From a virus, in the IMG/VR virus record IMGVR_UViG_3300035698_006339, positions 1 to 33,328 of that record: DNA of 33,328 nucleotides. One strand, 5' to 3'. The stretch's first letter is position 1. Each line of letters begins with the position of its first letter. Below are positions 17,038 through 29,017 of the stretch, in pieces. The notes below the pieces were generated by a model. That model worked only from the letters and a program-made list of their open reading frames with translations, had not been told where the DNA came from and did no database searches. The position numbers were made by a program, and so were the translations under genes.

Positions 17038-19311
17038 ATGTCAAAAATTTCATTTTATCAGTCAGTAAAAAATATAAGTCAGATGACCGAACTCGACCTC
17101 GACGACATCATGACGAGCATACAAATCGGCGAGTATCAAGAGATCGTTGAGCAAGTACGAGCGGCGACCGACCCAGAACTCAAAAAGAAACTCAAGACGA
17201 GTTTGCCCGCATTCACGGGCTCGGGCACATTCTCGAAACGACTCAATGAGAGCCTCATCAAGCACTCGGGTCGTATCATCATTGACCTCGATCATCTTGA
17301 GGACGTAAACGAGGCAAAGAGCCAACTCGGCGCCGATGAGTTCGTTGAGTACGCATTCACCTCAGTCGGTGGTCAAGGACTCGCCGTGGTGTTCAAAATA
17401 GACGGCTCAACACATGGGCAATCTTTTCAACAAATCAAGCAATACATCGAGACGAAATACGGGTACCAAGTTGACAAGGGTGTCAAAGAGGTAGCGAGGT
17501 TGAGGTTCGTCTCGTTTGACCCTGATCTCATGTACAACGCCGACGCGATTCAATGGGAGCCTCAAGCACTCGGCGGGCGTGAGGTATACGACACCGACCG
17601 CATCAAGCACATAATCGGCACCAACTTGAACAAGGCGATCGCGGGCGAGCGTCATTTTTTCAGAGTGAGAAACGCACGTCTTGCGGGAGGTTTCGTTGCG
17701 GGCGGCATGATCAGCGAGGACGAGATGCGCGACTTTATGCAAAATGAGATCATTTCGAGAGGCATCGACGGCACCAGACGGCAAGCGGCATTCAAGACAA
17801 TCGAGGACGGTTTAATTTATGGGCGCAAAGACCCGATCACAAAAGAGAAAGCCCAAGAGTACGAGGCGCGGCACGCCCAGACGACGAGCGCGATCAAGGA
17901 CGTGTTCGGGTTCGCGAATGAAGTCAACCGAGCTGGGCGCGATTTCACAAATACCGACATCGACCACCTTGCCAAGCAACACGGGCTCAATTTTTCAGAG
18001 GTTGAGACGATATTCAAGCGAGTGTTTCACGAGAATCGCGACGAGCACGGCATTGATGACAAGCCCGAGATTGACAAGGTTGAGCTCTTTCTCTCACGTG
18101 CTTACGAGTTTTTTTTCAATGAGGTCACTCAAATGCGTGAGTATCGAATCAAGGGCACGAATGACGATTTTGTGAAAGTGAACTATGACACTATTTGGCG
18201 AGCACTCTCAAAGCGCGGTTTCAAATTTCCGCTCGACAAACTCAAGAGCCTCTTGCGATCTGATTTCGTGACGATTTACAACCCGTTCAAGATGTACTTT
18301 GACCAATTGCCAACGTGGAAAGCTACAAAAGAGGGGCATGACCCAATCGGCGACCTCGCTGATCACGTGGTCACAACAACCCCCGGCTTTTTTCGTGAGC
18401 AACTCAAGAAAGCCCTCGTCAGACAAATCGCTTGCGCTCTCGGTAACTATGTCAACCGCATCGTGATCGTGCTCGTTTCTGAGGCACAAGCGACGGGCAA
18501 GAGTACGTTCATTCGATTTTTGAACCCTTTCGGCTTGGAGTATTACACCGAGAGCCCCTTGCAATCAAACAAAGATACCGAATTTGCATTTGTCGAGAAT
18601 TTCATGTATAACCTTGAGGAACTTTCGAGCCTCTCAAATACCGACGTGAACCGCCTCAAGGAGATCATCTCAAAAGCCTCGATCAAAGAGCGCAAGCCAT
18701 ACGCCCAAGATGCCGAAAGTCAGCCGAGGCGTTGCACATTCTGGGGTTCAACCAACAAGACCGAGTTCTTGACAGACACGCAAAACACTCGTTGGCTTTG
18801 TTTCACGGTTGAGTCAATCAAATGGGCGTACTCGAAAGAGATCGACATCAATGAGGTGTATGCTCAAGCTCTTGCTTTGTATAATGACCCGAATTTCAAC
18901 TTTGAGCTCAATGCTGACGAACAAGAGAAACGTGATTTCATCAACAAGGGCTTTGAGATCGTTGACATTGAGAAAGAGCTCATCATGCTACACTTTAAAG
19001 TATGCGCCAAGAACGCGGGCGAGTTTGTCAGCAATGCCGACATACTTGAGCGCCTGACTAATTTCACCGAGGGCAAGGTCAAACTCAATACGCGCATAAT
19101 TAGCAAAAGCATGGTTCAACTAGATTTTGATCGAGACATCAAGAAAGCAAACGGTCACGCCGTTCGGGGTTTTTGGGTCAAACAATATGCGAAGCCAAAG
19201 TACGTAATTGACACAGAAATGAACCTCAACCTCGACGAAAAGATTAAGAGAGCGAAAGCGAACCGCAAGATGATCGCCGACGGATCAGGTGACGGCGGGC
19301 AACCGTTCTAA
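17038..19311 (+). CDS. Primase-helicase (VirE_N plus VapE/DUF5906-like)
   Basis: From ATG 17038 the product is 757 residues; a longer frame from 16981 is rejected because it overlaps the preceding gene and lacks family start features. The N-terminal third resembles BT4734/VirE_N (RIIIDLDHL at about 79-87, an hDhD metal-site pattern, then TSVGGQGLAVVF), and the C-terminal half is a VapE-like helicase with Walker A region EAQATGKST (482-490) lacking the usual first glycine. An AEP-type primase followed by helicase is common in Bacteroidota elements. It is the phage's replication initiator enzyme in all likelihood. Confidence 0.85.
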   Translation: MSKISFYQSVKNISQMTELDLDDIMTSIQIGEYQEIVEQVRAATDPELKKKLKTSLPAFTGSGTFSKRLNESLIKHSGRIIIDLDHLEDVNEAKSQLGADEFVEYAFTSVGGQGLAVVFKIDGSTHGQSFQQIKQYIETKYGYQVDKGVKEVARLRFVSFDPDLMYNADAIQWEPQALGGREVYDTDRIKHIIGTNLNKAIAGERHFFRVRNARLAGGFVAGGMISEDEMRDFMQNEIISRGIDGTRRQAAFKTIEDGLIYGRKDPITKEKAQEYEARHAQTTSAIKDVFGFANEVNRAGRDFTNTDIDHLAKQHGLNFSEVETIFKRVFHENRDEHGIDDKPEIDKVELFLSRAYEFFFNEVTQMREYRIKGTNDDFVKVNYDTIWRALSKRGFKFPLDKLKSLLRSDFVTIYNPFKMYFDQLPTWKATKEGHDPIGDLADHVVTTTPGFFREQLKKALVRQIACALGNYVNRIVIVLVSEAQATGKSTFIRFLNPFGLEYYTESPLQSNKDTEFAFVENFMYNLEELSSLSNTDVNRLKEIISKASIKERKPYAQDAESQPRRCTFWGSTNKTEFLTDTQNTRWLCFTVESIKWAYSKEIDINEVYAQALALYNDPNFNFELNADEQEKRDFINKGFEIVDIEKELIMLHFKVCAKNAGEFVSNADILERLTNFTEGKVKLNTRIISKSMVQLDFDRDIKKANGHAVRGFWVKQYAKPKYVIDTEMNLNLDEKIKRAKANRKMIADGSGDGGQPF

Positions 19312-19313
19312 TT

Positions 19314-19331
19314 ACATAATCATTACATAAG
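19314..19331 (+). repeat. 18-base direct repeat, copy 1
   Basis: ACATAATCATTACATAAG matches ACATAATAATCACATAAG at 19381-19398 at 16 of 18 positions. It lies right after the primase stop. Copy 2 ends at the base before the ATG at 19399. Confidence 0.5.
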
Positions 19332-19380
19332 GAAAGCACCTGAACGCCTACAGATTGCCGCACAAAACGACCCTCGGGTC

Positions 19381-19398
19381 ACATAATAATCACATAAG
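19381..19398 (+). repeat. 18-base direct repeat, copy 2, before small gene
   Basis: This copy ends immediately before the ATG at 19399, so it forms the translation start leader of that small gene. Between the two copies lies GACCC-TC-GGGTC (19369-19380), a short palindrome. Confidence 0.5.
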
Positions 19399-19557
19399 AT
19401 GGAAGTACAAATATTAACATTCTCAGGGCGTAAAGCCGACAATGATGCCGCCAGTTGGGCGATTAAAATGATCGAGCAAGATTTCACGGTCACGCATTCG
19501 CTTGCGATTGATCAGCAAAACGGCAAACATCTTTCAATGCTCGCCGTCAAAAACTAG
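19399..19557 (+). CDS. Small hypothetical protein next to origin
   Basis: A 52-residue frame (MEVQILTFSGRKADNDAAS) begins at ATG 19399 and ends with TAG at 19555-19557. It includes WAIKMIEQDFTVTHSL, a compact helix-strand pattern. It directly precedes the repeat array at 19561-19829 and follows the 18-base repeat leader. The size and codon use are consistent with coding; function unknown. Confidence 0.6.
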   Translation: MEVQILTFSGRKADNDAASWAIKMIEQDFTVTHSLAIDQQNGKHLSMLAVKN

Positions 19558-19560
19558 AAG

Positions 19561-19829
19561 TGTAACCGAATGTAACTTTGCCGCGTTGCCCGTCTGTTCT
19601 ACGATGTAAGAGATTACGTCGTCAGCGGTTACATTAGTTACACTCGATTTGTATATAGTTCTTTTTGCGTCAGCGTCAAGGCGTGGGCATGGCGCCCTTT
19701 ATTTATTAAGTCTTTGACAATCTTTTCTTAAAATAGAAGTGTAACTAGTGTAACCCGAAGAGCAAACCCAAAGAGGGCAAGGATTTCAGAGGTTACGTTG
19801 CAAGTGTAACCAAGTGTAACTAATGTAAC
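19561..19829. other. Candidate replication origin with TGTAAC iterons
   Basis: The 273-base gap (19558-19830) holds seven TGTAAC words (19561, 19571, 19740, 19749, 19805, 19815, 19824) and two inverted copies GTTACA (19628, 19637), plus near matches GTTACG 19792 and TGTAAG 19605. Within each cluster the spacing is 9 or 10 bases, about one helical turn, with consensus AGTGTAACnnAnTGTAAC. An AT-rich stretch (19701-19736) lies between clusters. Location directly after the primase-helicase supports an origin or initiator-binding array. Confidence 0.65.
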
Positions 19830-19830
19830 T

Positions 19831-20187
19831 ATGATTCAAGCCCAAAGTGAAATCCAATTGCAAGCCGAATGCGTAAGATACATGCGCAACGAATTGCGCG
19901 TCGTTTACGGCACTTTTTTCTCAGTGCCTAACGAAGGCAAGCGTGGGGTCGTGAACGCATCGAGAATGATCGCTCAAGGCTTGCTCGCGGGTATTCCTGA
20001 CCTCGTTTGGCTGATTGATGAAACCGTCGTATTTTTTGAACTGAAAGCAAAGAACGGTTCGACGAGCGCAAAGCAAAAACTCATTCACGAGAATCTCAGA
20101 GCCGAGGGGTATGAGGTTCATATAGTTAAAACGTTCACCGAATTTGAAAAAATCGTATGTTTGCGAATCAATAAACAAACCCTATAA
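19831..20187 (+). CDS. VRR-NUC domain nuclease
   Basis: The 118-residue protein shows the VRR-NUC pattern: GIPDLVWLI (D57), then FFELKAKNG (E70, K72) and a following Gln (Q82), which are the PD-(D/E)XK-like catalytic residues. Small phage VRR-NUC proteins act as Holliday junction or flap nucleases. It begins just after the iteron array and its last part overlaps the promoter of the next gene. The ATG follows the final TGTAAC by one base, so its leader is made of iterons. Confidence 0.8.
   Translation: MIQAQSEIQLQAECVRYMRNELRVVYGTFFSVPNEGKRGVVNASRMIAQGLLAGIPDLVWLIDETVVFFELKAKNGSTSAKQKLIHENLRAEGYEVHIVKTFTEFEKIVCLRINKQTL
20156..20163 (+). promoter_or_regulatory. Promoter box TATGTTTG before lipoprotein gene
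   Basis: TATGTTTG, identical to the two early promoter boxes, lies inside the end of the nuclease gene, 35 bases before the ATG at 20199. The three bases before it (TCG) and two after (CG) match the early module, but no ACTGATACAGT dyad is present, so it may be constitutive or differently timed. Confidence 0.6.
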
Positions 20188-20198
20188 ATTCACCAATT

Positions 20199-20891
20199 AT
20201 GAAAAAAGTAATTTTTTCAACGCTTGGGCTCGCCCTTACTTTTTTTACAGTTTCCGCAACCCTGAGCTCTTGCTCAAAGGAAAACGTCGAGACAAAAGTA
20301 TCAAACCCTGATCAGGTTCTTGAGATCAAAACCGTGCTTGATAGAATGGCGATCGAAATGCGTGCCCCTGATCTCATATTTTCAATTACAGAGATCGACC
20401 AGGCAATGCAAGGTAATCACCCAGCTCTTGTCGCAAGCCGTGACGCTTGCGAGCCTTTTTGTCTGAAACGCAAAGTCGGTGGCAATGCGAGTGAATATCG
20501 TGCGAACATTGTCACCGTGCTCGAATACCTGAGCATTTTCGGCTCTGAGGTCGAGACGTATGACCCACGTGACACCAACGGCGACAATTTCATCAACATG
20601 AGCGACGTCCTTGTGATACTGGCGAGCTTTGGCAATGAATTTGAAACCGTGCCCCTCTCAGCAGTTGATGCGGTCGGCGGTGAAATATCGGGCTCGGGTG
20701 AGCTTGCTCTCTATCCTGACGAACTAATTGTCAACGGTGAGATTCTCACCCCGATCAGCTTGTTCAAGGGTTCAAATTGCTTTGTACAAGACTACGAGAG
20801 CGACGAGTATAACGCCGAATTTTGCTACAATCAAACGATGCTCTCTTTTGCAACGAGCGGCGGCACAATCAAGTATTTTCACATCAATTAA
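20199..20891 (+). CDS. Predicted lipoprotein with dockerin-like EF-hand
   Basis: The 230-residue product begins with a signal peptide and lipobox (KKVIFSTLGLALTFF, then TLSSC with Cys25), so it should be lipid-anchored outside the cytoplasm. Residues 125-136 (DTNGDNFINMSD) form an EF-hand/dockerin-type calcium site, followed by VLVILASFG, the usual dockerin continuation. The C-terminal half is beta-rich. It has its own TATGTTTG box and is unlike the replication genes around it. A role at the host surface such as superinfection exclusion is a guess; acquisition from a bacterial secreted protein is plausible. Confidence 0.8.
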   Translation: MKKVIFSTLGLALTFFTVSATLSSCSKENVETKVSNPDQVLEIKTVLDRMAIEMRAPDLIFSITEIDQAMQGNHPALVASRDACEPFCLKRKVGGNASEYRANIVTVLEYLSIFGSEVETYDPRDTNGDNFINMSDVLVILASFGNEFETVPLSAVDAVGGEISGSGELALYPDELIVNGEILTPISLFKGSNCFVQDYESDEYNAEFCYNQTMLSFATSGGTIKYFHIN

Positions 20892-27892: not shown

Positions 27893-27929
27893 ACAACACG
27901 GTTATAGTTTATACCTAATTCCGTGCTGT
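27893..27929. terminator. Inverted repeat at end of minus-strand AT-rich genes
   Basis: ACAACACGG (27893-27901) and CCGTGCTGT (27921-27929) can pair; on the minus-strand RNA a G-U pair completes nine base pairs around a 19-base loop. Downstream on the minus strand is CGTTTTAAT, so it can end the 28419-27947 transcript. It is also downstream of the plus-strand gene ending at 27875. Confidence 0.45.
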
Positions 27930-27946
27930 ATCAAAGTTTCGTGCTT

Positions 27947-28156
27947 CTAATCTTTTTCTTTTATTTTTTTCCCACCCCTCTCAAGATTGCGTTTAACAAT
28001 TCTATAAATATCATTTTCAAATTCTTCTTTTTTCAATCTGCTAAAATGGTACTCTAAACTTTGCTTATCAAGTTCAGTAATTTCTTCACACATAATTGGT
28101 AAAGAGCCGAATATTCTCGGCTCTTTTGTTTTTTTATTCAAAAACCAATAAGCCAT
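27947..28156 (-). CDS. AT-rich hypothetical protein
   Basis: The 69-residue product starts at the last base of the upstream stop (TAATG), so it is coupled to that gene. It is charged and helical: MAYWFLNKKTKEPRIFGS, then a CEEITELDKQSLEYHF helix and a basic end (RNLERGGKKIKEKD). Codon choice is far more AT-rich than the surrounding phage genes. It may be a small regulator or anti-host protein, but no motif is clear. Confidence 0.65.
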   Translation of the reverse strand: MAYWFLNKKTKEPRIFGSLPIMCEEITELDKQSLEYHFSRLKKEEFENDIYRIVKRNLERGGKKIKEKD

Positions 28157-28419
28157 TATTTGGTAAAATAATAATCAGTTACTATTTCGCTCTCACCCCA
28201 AATCTCCATCATAAATTCTTTATCTTCAATCTCACCTTTTTCAAATTCAGAAGTGAAAACTGTGAACTCAGTAATTTGAGAAAAAGTACCATCTGCCCTC
28301 TTTACCTCATTACTAAATTCTAACTCACTTTTAGCATCTTCAAGATTATGAAAGAATCCTAAAAAATCACCCATATTATTTGTGTAATCGTCAGCTCTGT
28401 AAATTGTTGTAGTTTTCAT
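28156..28419 (-). CDS. AT-rich hypothetical acidic protein
   Basis: The 87-residue acidic protein (MKTTTIYRADDYTNNMGD at the start; SEIVTDYYFTK at the end) is the first of two coupled minus-strand genes. A leftward promoter (28462-28493) lies 43 bases upstream. Base composition differs sharply from the phage core, which suggests later acquisition. The fold looks strand-rich with one acidic helix (HNLEDAKSELEFSNEVK). Function unknown; a host-takeover role is speculation. Confidence 0.65.
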   Translation of the reverse strand: MKTTTIYRADDYTNNMGDFLGFFHNLEDAKSELEFSNEVKRADGTFSQITEFTVFTSEFEKGEIEDKEFMMEIWGESEIVTDYYFTK

Positions 28420-28461
28420 AATTTTTGTTTTTTAAATTGTTATTAATTAATTATTGCACTA

Positions 28462-28492
28462 CGAATATATAACTTATTTTGTTTTAAAACAA
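28462..28492 (-). promoter_or_regulatory. Leftward promoter TTG-N20-TATATTCG of AT-rich genes
   Basis: On the minus strand TATATTCG (28469-28462) is one base from TAnnTTTG, and TTG lies 20 bases upstream, in range for a Bacteroidota -33 element. It is 43 bases before the ATG at 28419. Confidence 0.55.
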
Positions 28493-28493
28493 A
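28478..28493. promoter_or_regulatory. Perfect palindrome TTTGTTTTAAAACAAA
   Basis: This 16-base perfect palindrome overlaps the -33 part of the leftward promoter, the position of a repressor operator. It could be the binding site of a dimeric regulator that keeps the AT-rich genes off. Confidence 0.5.
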
Positions 28494-28560
28494 TTCAAAA
28501 AGCAAAATGTTTCAATTATTATGTATTTTAGGCTAAAAAGGCTAATTTGCCAACGCTCTA

Positions 28561-28600
28561 AAAAAATAAAATAAAAAGCGATAGTGCTTAAACTACGCTT
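28561..28600 (-). terminator. Minus-strand terminator after broken gene
   Basis: Read on the minus strand, AAGCG-TAGT (28600-28592) pairs with ACTA-T-CGCTT (28585-28576), loop TTAAGC, followed by an almost pure T tract across 28575-28561. It stands 8 bases after the stop at 28609 and so ends the transcript of the HTH-like gene at 29017-28817. Confidence 0.7.
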
Positions 28601-28608
28601 ATGTAGAT

Positions 28609-28804
28609 TCATTGTCCTGTCCATTTTCGAAGTTCTTCTTGTAGAATTAAAGCTTCTTGATATGACGGTTGGCACCTCGTCCAGTTCGCGCAATGGTCAT
28701 TCGTTTCTTTCGCGGTGGTTTTTGCCTATGGGTTCACGTGTAACGAGTGGCGTTTTTGGGCTTTTTGGGTCGTGACCCGTGGATTGCTCACGAGCTCGTT
28801 CTCA
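28609..28804 (-). pseudogene. Frame-broken small gene downstream of HTH-like gene
   Basis: The final part (TGA at 28611-28609) reads HCANWTRCQPSYQEALILQ and then EELRKWTGQ, with an in-frame TAG and no start upstream. The preceding part is coding-like one frame over (DPKSPKTPLVTREP, then IGKNHRERN). Joined at about 28693-28699 they form a continuous protein with a C-x(4)-C pair. A terminator follows the stop directly, which shows the end is that of a real transcript. One frameshift and a missing start explain the damage. The bases 28494-28560 hold nothing I can name. Confidence 0.5.
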
Positions 28805-28816
28805 GCGTTTTACGAC

Positions 28817-29017
28817 TCAGTATTTCGAGGACGTCGCTGAGCCGCCCGTGCGTCGGTCATTAAGCGCCTTTTGCAAGTCGTACCAAATGGTTCGCTCACT
28901 CAAATACAACTCACTCGAAAGCTCTCTAATTGCTCTTGATATGGGTATCGGGCGCCTCTCTATTTCATCAAATATATGCTTTGCCCTCTTGTCGAGCTTG
29001 CCGTTTTCTCGTCTCAT
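28817..29017 (-). CDS. Small HTH-like protein
   Basis: The 66-residue protein is basic with KLDKRAKHIFDEIERRPIP followed by ISRAIRELSSELYLSERTIWY, the second half of which looks like a helix-turn-helix recognition unit (LSSELYLSERTIWYDLQKAL). It could bind DNA or sense a regulatory site. It is divergent from the protease gene at 29088 and the first gene of a minus-strand unit ended by the terminator at 28561-28600. Confidence 0.65.
   Translation of the reverse strand: MRRENGKLDKRAKHIFDEIERRPIPISRAIRELSSELYLSERTIWYDLQKALNDRRTGGSATSSKY

Follow-up and report, generated by a model that had tools for sequence, protein, structure and literature searches.

A TGTAAC iteron array downstream of a VapE-type primase-helicase gene as the likely replication origin of a Bacteroidetes phage

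The TGTAAC array at positions 19561-19829 is very likely a phage replication origin bound by the primase-helicase encoded beside it, as judged from sequence comparison and structure modelling. The window, that is, the whole stretch of DNA analysed, is the 33,328-base virus record IMGVR_UViG_3300035698_006339. A portal, a major head protein, a head protease, a tape measure, a baseplate hub and both terminases are encoded in the window. Since these structural and terminase genes are present, the element is taken to be a tailed phage, complete in appearance, and not a satellite island. It is a Bacteroidetes phage, and its closest isolated relatives, as judged by the helicase, are Flavobacterium phages of the Winoviridae. 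The features of the array region are listed in Table 1.

Table 1. Positions of the array, its elements and the neighbouring genes in the window
Feature	Position	Strand	Remarks
Primase-helicase, 776 aa	16981-19311	+	BT4734-like N-terminal domain, VapE/SF3 helicase, predicted C-terminal winged helix; proposed initiator
C-terminal region, residues 640-776	18898-19308	+	Predicted winged helix; proposed iteron-binding domain
Wing-strand codons, residues 718-735	19132-19185	+	I720 (19138-19140), A727 (19159-19161)
52-aa small gene	19399-19557	+	Candidate partner in the earlier note; not conserved alongside the array
Iteron block A	19561-19576	+	TGTAAC at 19561 and 19571; more variable in relatives
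Iteron block B	19628-19642	-	Inverted TGTAAC at 19628 and 19637; invariant in four aligned sequences
AT-rich segment	19697-19738	none	81% AT against a window mean of 51.7%; between blocks B and C
Iteron block C	19740-19754	+	TGTAAC at 19740 and 19749
Iteron block D	19805-19829	+	TGTAAC at 19805, 19815 and 19824
VRR-NUC nuclease gene	19831-20187	+	Same place kept in relatives and isolates; the model does not need VRR-NUC

An earlier note on this DNA had described seven forward and two inverted TGTAAC words in four clusters, spaced by 9-10 bp within clusters and lying in a gene-free gap. All nine positions and the spacing were recovered, and no ORF of at least 45 aa lies wholly inside the gap. 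The accompanying claim that the sites face one side of the DNA holds only approximately, because the modal same-strand spacing in TGTAAC-bearing relatives is 9 bp (mostly 7-12), nearer to 0.86 turn than to a full turn. Counted on both strands, TGTAAC occurs 16 times in the window, against 9.9 expected from shuffles, and 9 of the 16 copies fall within these 269 bp. When 16 sites were placed at random, none of 20,000 placements put nine within a 269-bp span, which rules out chance clustering and bears out the array as a local concentration of the word. The AT maximum is flanked by four and five sites, and the AT-rich segment is the proposed melting element. Two imperfect copies absent from the earlier note, TGTAAG at 19605 and GTTACG at 19792, were also found within the array; relative L005 has a perfect GTTACA aligned with the second of these. 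The array starts 250 bp past the helicase stop codon, with one small gene between them (two in relative L003).

A scan of the window against Rfam matched no known RNA, and promoter and terminator predictions were no more numerous than in shuffles. The cumulative GC skew of the whole window gave a broad plateau at about 16-20 kb, with no clear minimum and no clear origin signal. In the stretch 19313-19398, which precedes the 52-aa gene, TTACATAA is repeated at about 19313 and 19324 and TCACATAA at about 19380 and 19391, both at 11-bp spacing. These pairs are possibly degenerate iterons; they were not seen in L003 or L005.

The entire layout is retained in relatives whose helicase or VRR-NUC protein is 72-84% identical. 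Across the window and three relatives, all 42 site bases in blocks B-D (seven sites) are invariant, compared with 51 of the 160 other bases. Two further words within the array but outside the iterons, CGTCTGT (19591-19597) and TATATA (19652-19657), are invariant in the four sequences as well.

An unbiased set was assembled by fetching relatives of the primase-helicase by protein alone; the seed alignment included array-bearing proteins, and the search itself used only the protein. The set comprised 56 distinct relatives, 54 of them with enough downstream sequence, and arrays were called by a de novo hexamer search scored against base composition. A significant hexamer cluster was present in 38/54 downstream regions, compared with 3/50 upstream regions and 4/56 gene interiors, and about 30% of the relatives had no detectable array in 900 bp. 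Homopolymers aside, the hexamer that clustered most often was TGTAAC (16/54 downstream regions and no upstream region); the other array words included TGTTAC, GTTACC, TACTAC, TGTTCC, TGGTCA and TGTTGAC. At 39 of 40 array loci, the AT maximum has at least two iterons on either side. Among the isolates, FPSV-S1 has a TGTAAC array in the gap between helicase and VRR-NUC genes, lotta8-1 has a TGTTCC array and phi17:1 has TGGTCA repeats. The matches listed in collection-wide pattern scans included false positives in repetitive coding genes such as collagen-like and PASTA ORFs, and these scans were not used for rates.

The origin half of the earlier reading is thus supported by the conservation of the sites, the iteron sets flanking an AT-rich segment, the 3′ position in dozens of phages and the match to the SaPI/PICI origins described below. 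The other half, which made the 52-residue gene the partner, was rejected. In a tblastn search over all loci compared, the 52-aa protein was matched in the window and in relatives L003, L004 and L005 and nowhere else; the isolates FPSV-S1 and lotta8-1 have an array, and no gene is annotated between their helicase and VRR-NUC genes. Because the small gene is not conserved with the array, it was not taken as the binder, and the protein that the earlier note could not name is most likely the primase-helicase.

In the primase-helicase, Pfam recognised BT4734-like_N (7.6e-18) and VapE-like_dom (9e-28), and phmmer matched it to 7pds_A, 'Similar to D. nodosus vapE' (E 9.6e-9). No Toprim match was obtained. 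The AlphaFold2 model of the C-terminal region (mean pLDDT 83.7) has winged-helix secondary structure, with wing strands at residues 718-723 and 726-735. A search of the PDB with the C-terminal sequence profile gave no convincing match. By structure, the best match was the RFX DNA-binding domain (8zjr, Z 8.7; 1dp7, Z 7.5), at Z values below 9, which can reflect a common fold. The RFX half-site RGYAAC resembles TGTAAC. Foldseek matched the P4 alpha origin-binding domain 1ka8 weakly (rank 8, E 0.24); its absence from the 50 structural matches listed in the comparison that found RFX says nothing either way. Pfam DUF3874 matched a third of the family C-terminal regions scanned, and the region of the window itself fell below that threshold.

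The association between the iteron word and the protein was then compared over 716 protein columns. The two best predictors of the word were I720 and A727, one on each modelled wing strand. A727 reached z 7.2 (99% of null maxima, 5.9) and I720 z 5.6 (99% of null second-largest values, 5.3). TGTAAC arrays mostly go with V/I/L at 720 and T/P/A at 727, TGTTAC/GTTACC arrays with Q/M at 720 and N/K at 727, and TACTAC-type arrays with P at 727 in 6 of 7 cases. The A2 relatives, many of which share more than 90% identity with one another, carry differing words, and the wing letters that follow 'GK' differ along with them. On the helicase-core tree the word class showed about 18 changes against a shuffled mean of 19.4, that is, little phylogenetic signal. 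The word changes about as often as shuffled labels do, and therefore relatedness does not drive the covariation comparison. At independent TGTAAC/TGTTAC switches, the matching change of residue 727 was found in 5 of 5 (sign test p 0.06, the minimum for five pairs). L255, whose C-terminus aligns badly, was omitted from the pair tests, L289 was taken out manually, and L272 (CTACCC) was counted under 'other' through an orientation error.

For a hold-out comparison, the rule was fixed in writing before new loci were fetched. The word was predicted correctly at all 8 loci where both a prediction and an array were present, the word classes having been set after viewing the training set and the held-out loci being partly related to it. 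Seven more predictions fell on loci without a detectable array, four of them with a shortened wing; for loci with 'other' words the rule made no prediction. No downstream array was detectable for several held-out VapE proteins with a four-residue wing gap (L462, L475-L478, L483 and L484), which suggests that these proteins lost or replaced this mode of origin recognition.

The window fits the Rep-ori module of SaPI/PICI elements in every sequence feature tested. In SaPI Rep helicases, the C-terminal domain recognises iterons directly downstream of the gene (PMC7581432), and PICI origins always contain two iteron sets flanking an AT-rich region, an organisation said in 2018 to exist in 'no other known bacterial replicon' (PMC6092414). 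The window and its family share the VapE-type Rep helicase, the iterons immediately 3′ of the Rep gene and the two iteron sets around an AT-rich region. Unlike those elements, the window is a complete-looking tailed phage that encodes terminases, a portal, capsid and tail proteins of its own, its helicase has a BT4734-type N-terminal domain, and a small gene separates helicase and array. PICI satellites are recognised by the lack of a full structural gene set, and the window does carry such a set.

P4 alpha is a primase-helicase whose C-terminal winged-helix domain binds origin repeats (PMC4234260), and the window protein is likewise a primase-helicase with a predicted C-terminal winged helix, but the alpha primase is of the Toprim (DnaG) type and the fold match is weak. 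For SCCmec Cch2, a helicase proposed to load itself, the C-terminal domain on its own binds direct repeats (AAGTG iterons) just 3′ of the gene in vitro (PMC7581432). Cch2 differs in that its helicase is of the D5 type, its iterons number only three and the polymerase-primase is separate. In RFX proteins, wing W1 reads the major groove (PMC2533330), and such reading is consistent with wing residues setting the word. RFX proteins are eukaryotic transcription factors, and the likeness is one of fold rather than of demonstrated sequence homology.

On the proposed mechanism, the C-terminal winged helix of the VapE-type primase-helicase would bind the TGTAAC iterons, the bases probably being read by the wing in the RFX mode. 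Helicase copies would assemble as two rings on the iteron sets A+B and C+D, and the rings would melt the AT-rich segment and then load on the single strands. The N-terminal domain may then prime bidirectional synthesis. The support for iteron recognition by a Rep-type C-terminal domain is the I720/A727 covariation.

Other explanations of the array were weighed against this origin. It could be an operator at which a TGTAAC-binding repressor or activator controls VRR-NUC and the downstream packaging genes; block D stops 1 bp short of the VRR-NUC start codon, and the conserved TATATA lies just past block B. However, the array follows the helicase gene regardless of what lies downstream, an operator would not usually have sites on both strands that span about 270 bp with an AT-rich core between them, and the word covaries with the wing of the helicase and not with the rest of the protein. 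We regard the operator as improbable, and autoregulation by the initiator could be a secondary effect. Even less probable is binding by the terminase small subunit, which would make the array a packaging (pac) site. The array is 1.7-2.2 kb upstream of the terminase genes, and in another phage group TGTAAC arrays stand directly beside Terminase_2 small subunits, but in the primase-helicase family the word tracks the helicase wing and the position of the array is set by the helicase, not by the terminase.

The two remaining candidates concern the identity of the binder. The 52-aa protein adjoins the array, as do its relatives in L003/L004/L005, but it was not found by the other TGTAAC arrays compared, VRR-NUC directly follows the helicase in the gene annotation of FPSV-S1 and lotta8-1, and the 52-aa protein had no Pfam or PHROGs match; it is a highly implausible origin-binding partner. 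The chance that the repeats are bound by a host protein, for instance a chromosomal initiator, appears just as slim. TGTAAC arrays do occur in unrelated phages and bacterial contigs among the matches listed, yet closely related phages differ in their word, which follows a pair of residues encoded by the phage.

With the primase-helicase as the likely binder, the two-residue rule ties a phage initiator to its origin word, and the C-terminal domain DUF3874 gains a proposed role. Novelty appears to lie in the two-residue code and in how far the layout extends, the mechanism being a known one. An origin layout called unique to PICIs in 2018 (PMC6092414) is suggested to be widespread among complete tailed phages, Flavobacterium isolates among them. 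Should the rule hold, sequence could be used to predict origins, compatibility groups and the interference between phages and satellites that acts through origins. A broader and more tentative reading, to which we give somewhat better than a one-in-three chance, is that a portable RFX-like winged-helix module with a short code, chiefly at two wing positions, sets origin specificity in VapE/D5/DUF927/PrimPol-type replicons, whether these belong to phages, to islands or to some archaeal elements, and that TGTAAC is its commonest word. Origins and replicon compatibility would then be predictable from sequence across these replicons.

TGTAAC arrays were also seen in other settings. In a second phage group (L062, L117, L056, L075, L107 and L017), they lie directly beside a Terminase_2-like small subunit, in some cases with a family A DNA polymerase nearby and with no VapE helicase adjacent. 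In L242, L074, L170, L141, L118 and L187, the arrays adjoin primase-helicases of other types, among them a Pacearchaeota PrimPol-MCM protein and PrimPol proteins of the D5 type; several of these primase-helicases end in a similar wing motif.

Two further features of the window were observed. Between the VRR-NUC and terminase genes, positions 20199-20891 encode a predicted lipoprotein with a dockerin/EF-hand-like motif (DTNGDNFINMSD), which is kept in L003, L005 and L006 and is a candidate superinfection-exclusion protein. Within the head and packaging gene block, an AT-rich island with minus-strand ORFs at 27900-28700 (GC 0.355 at 28001-29000) looks like a recent insertion.
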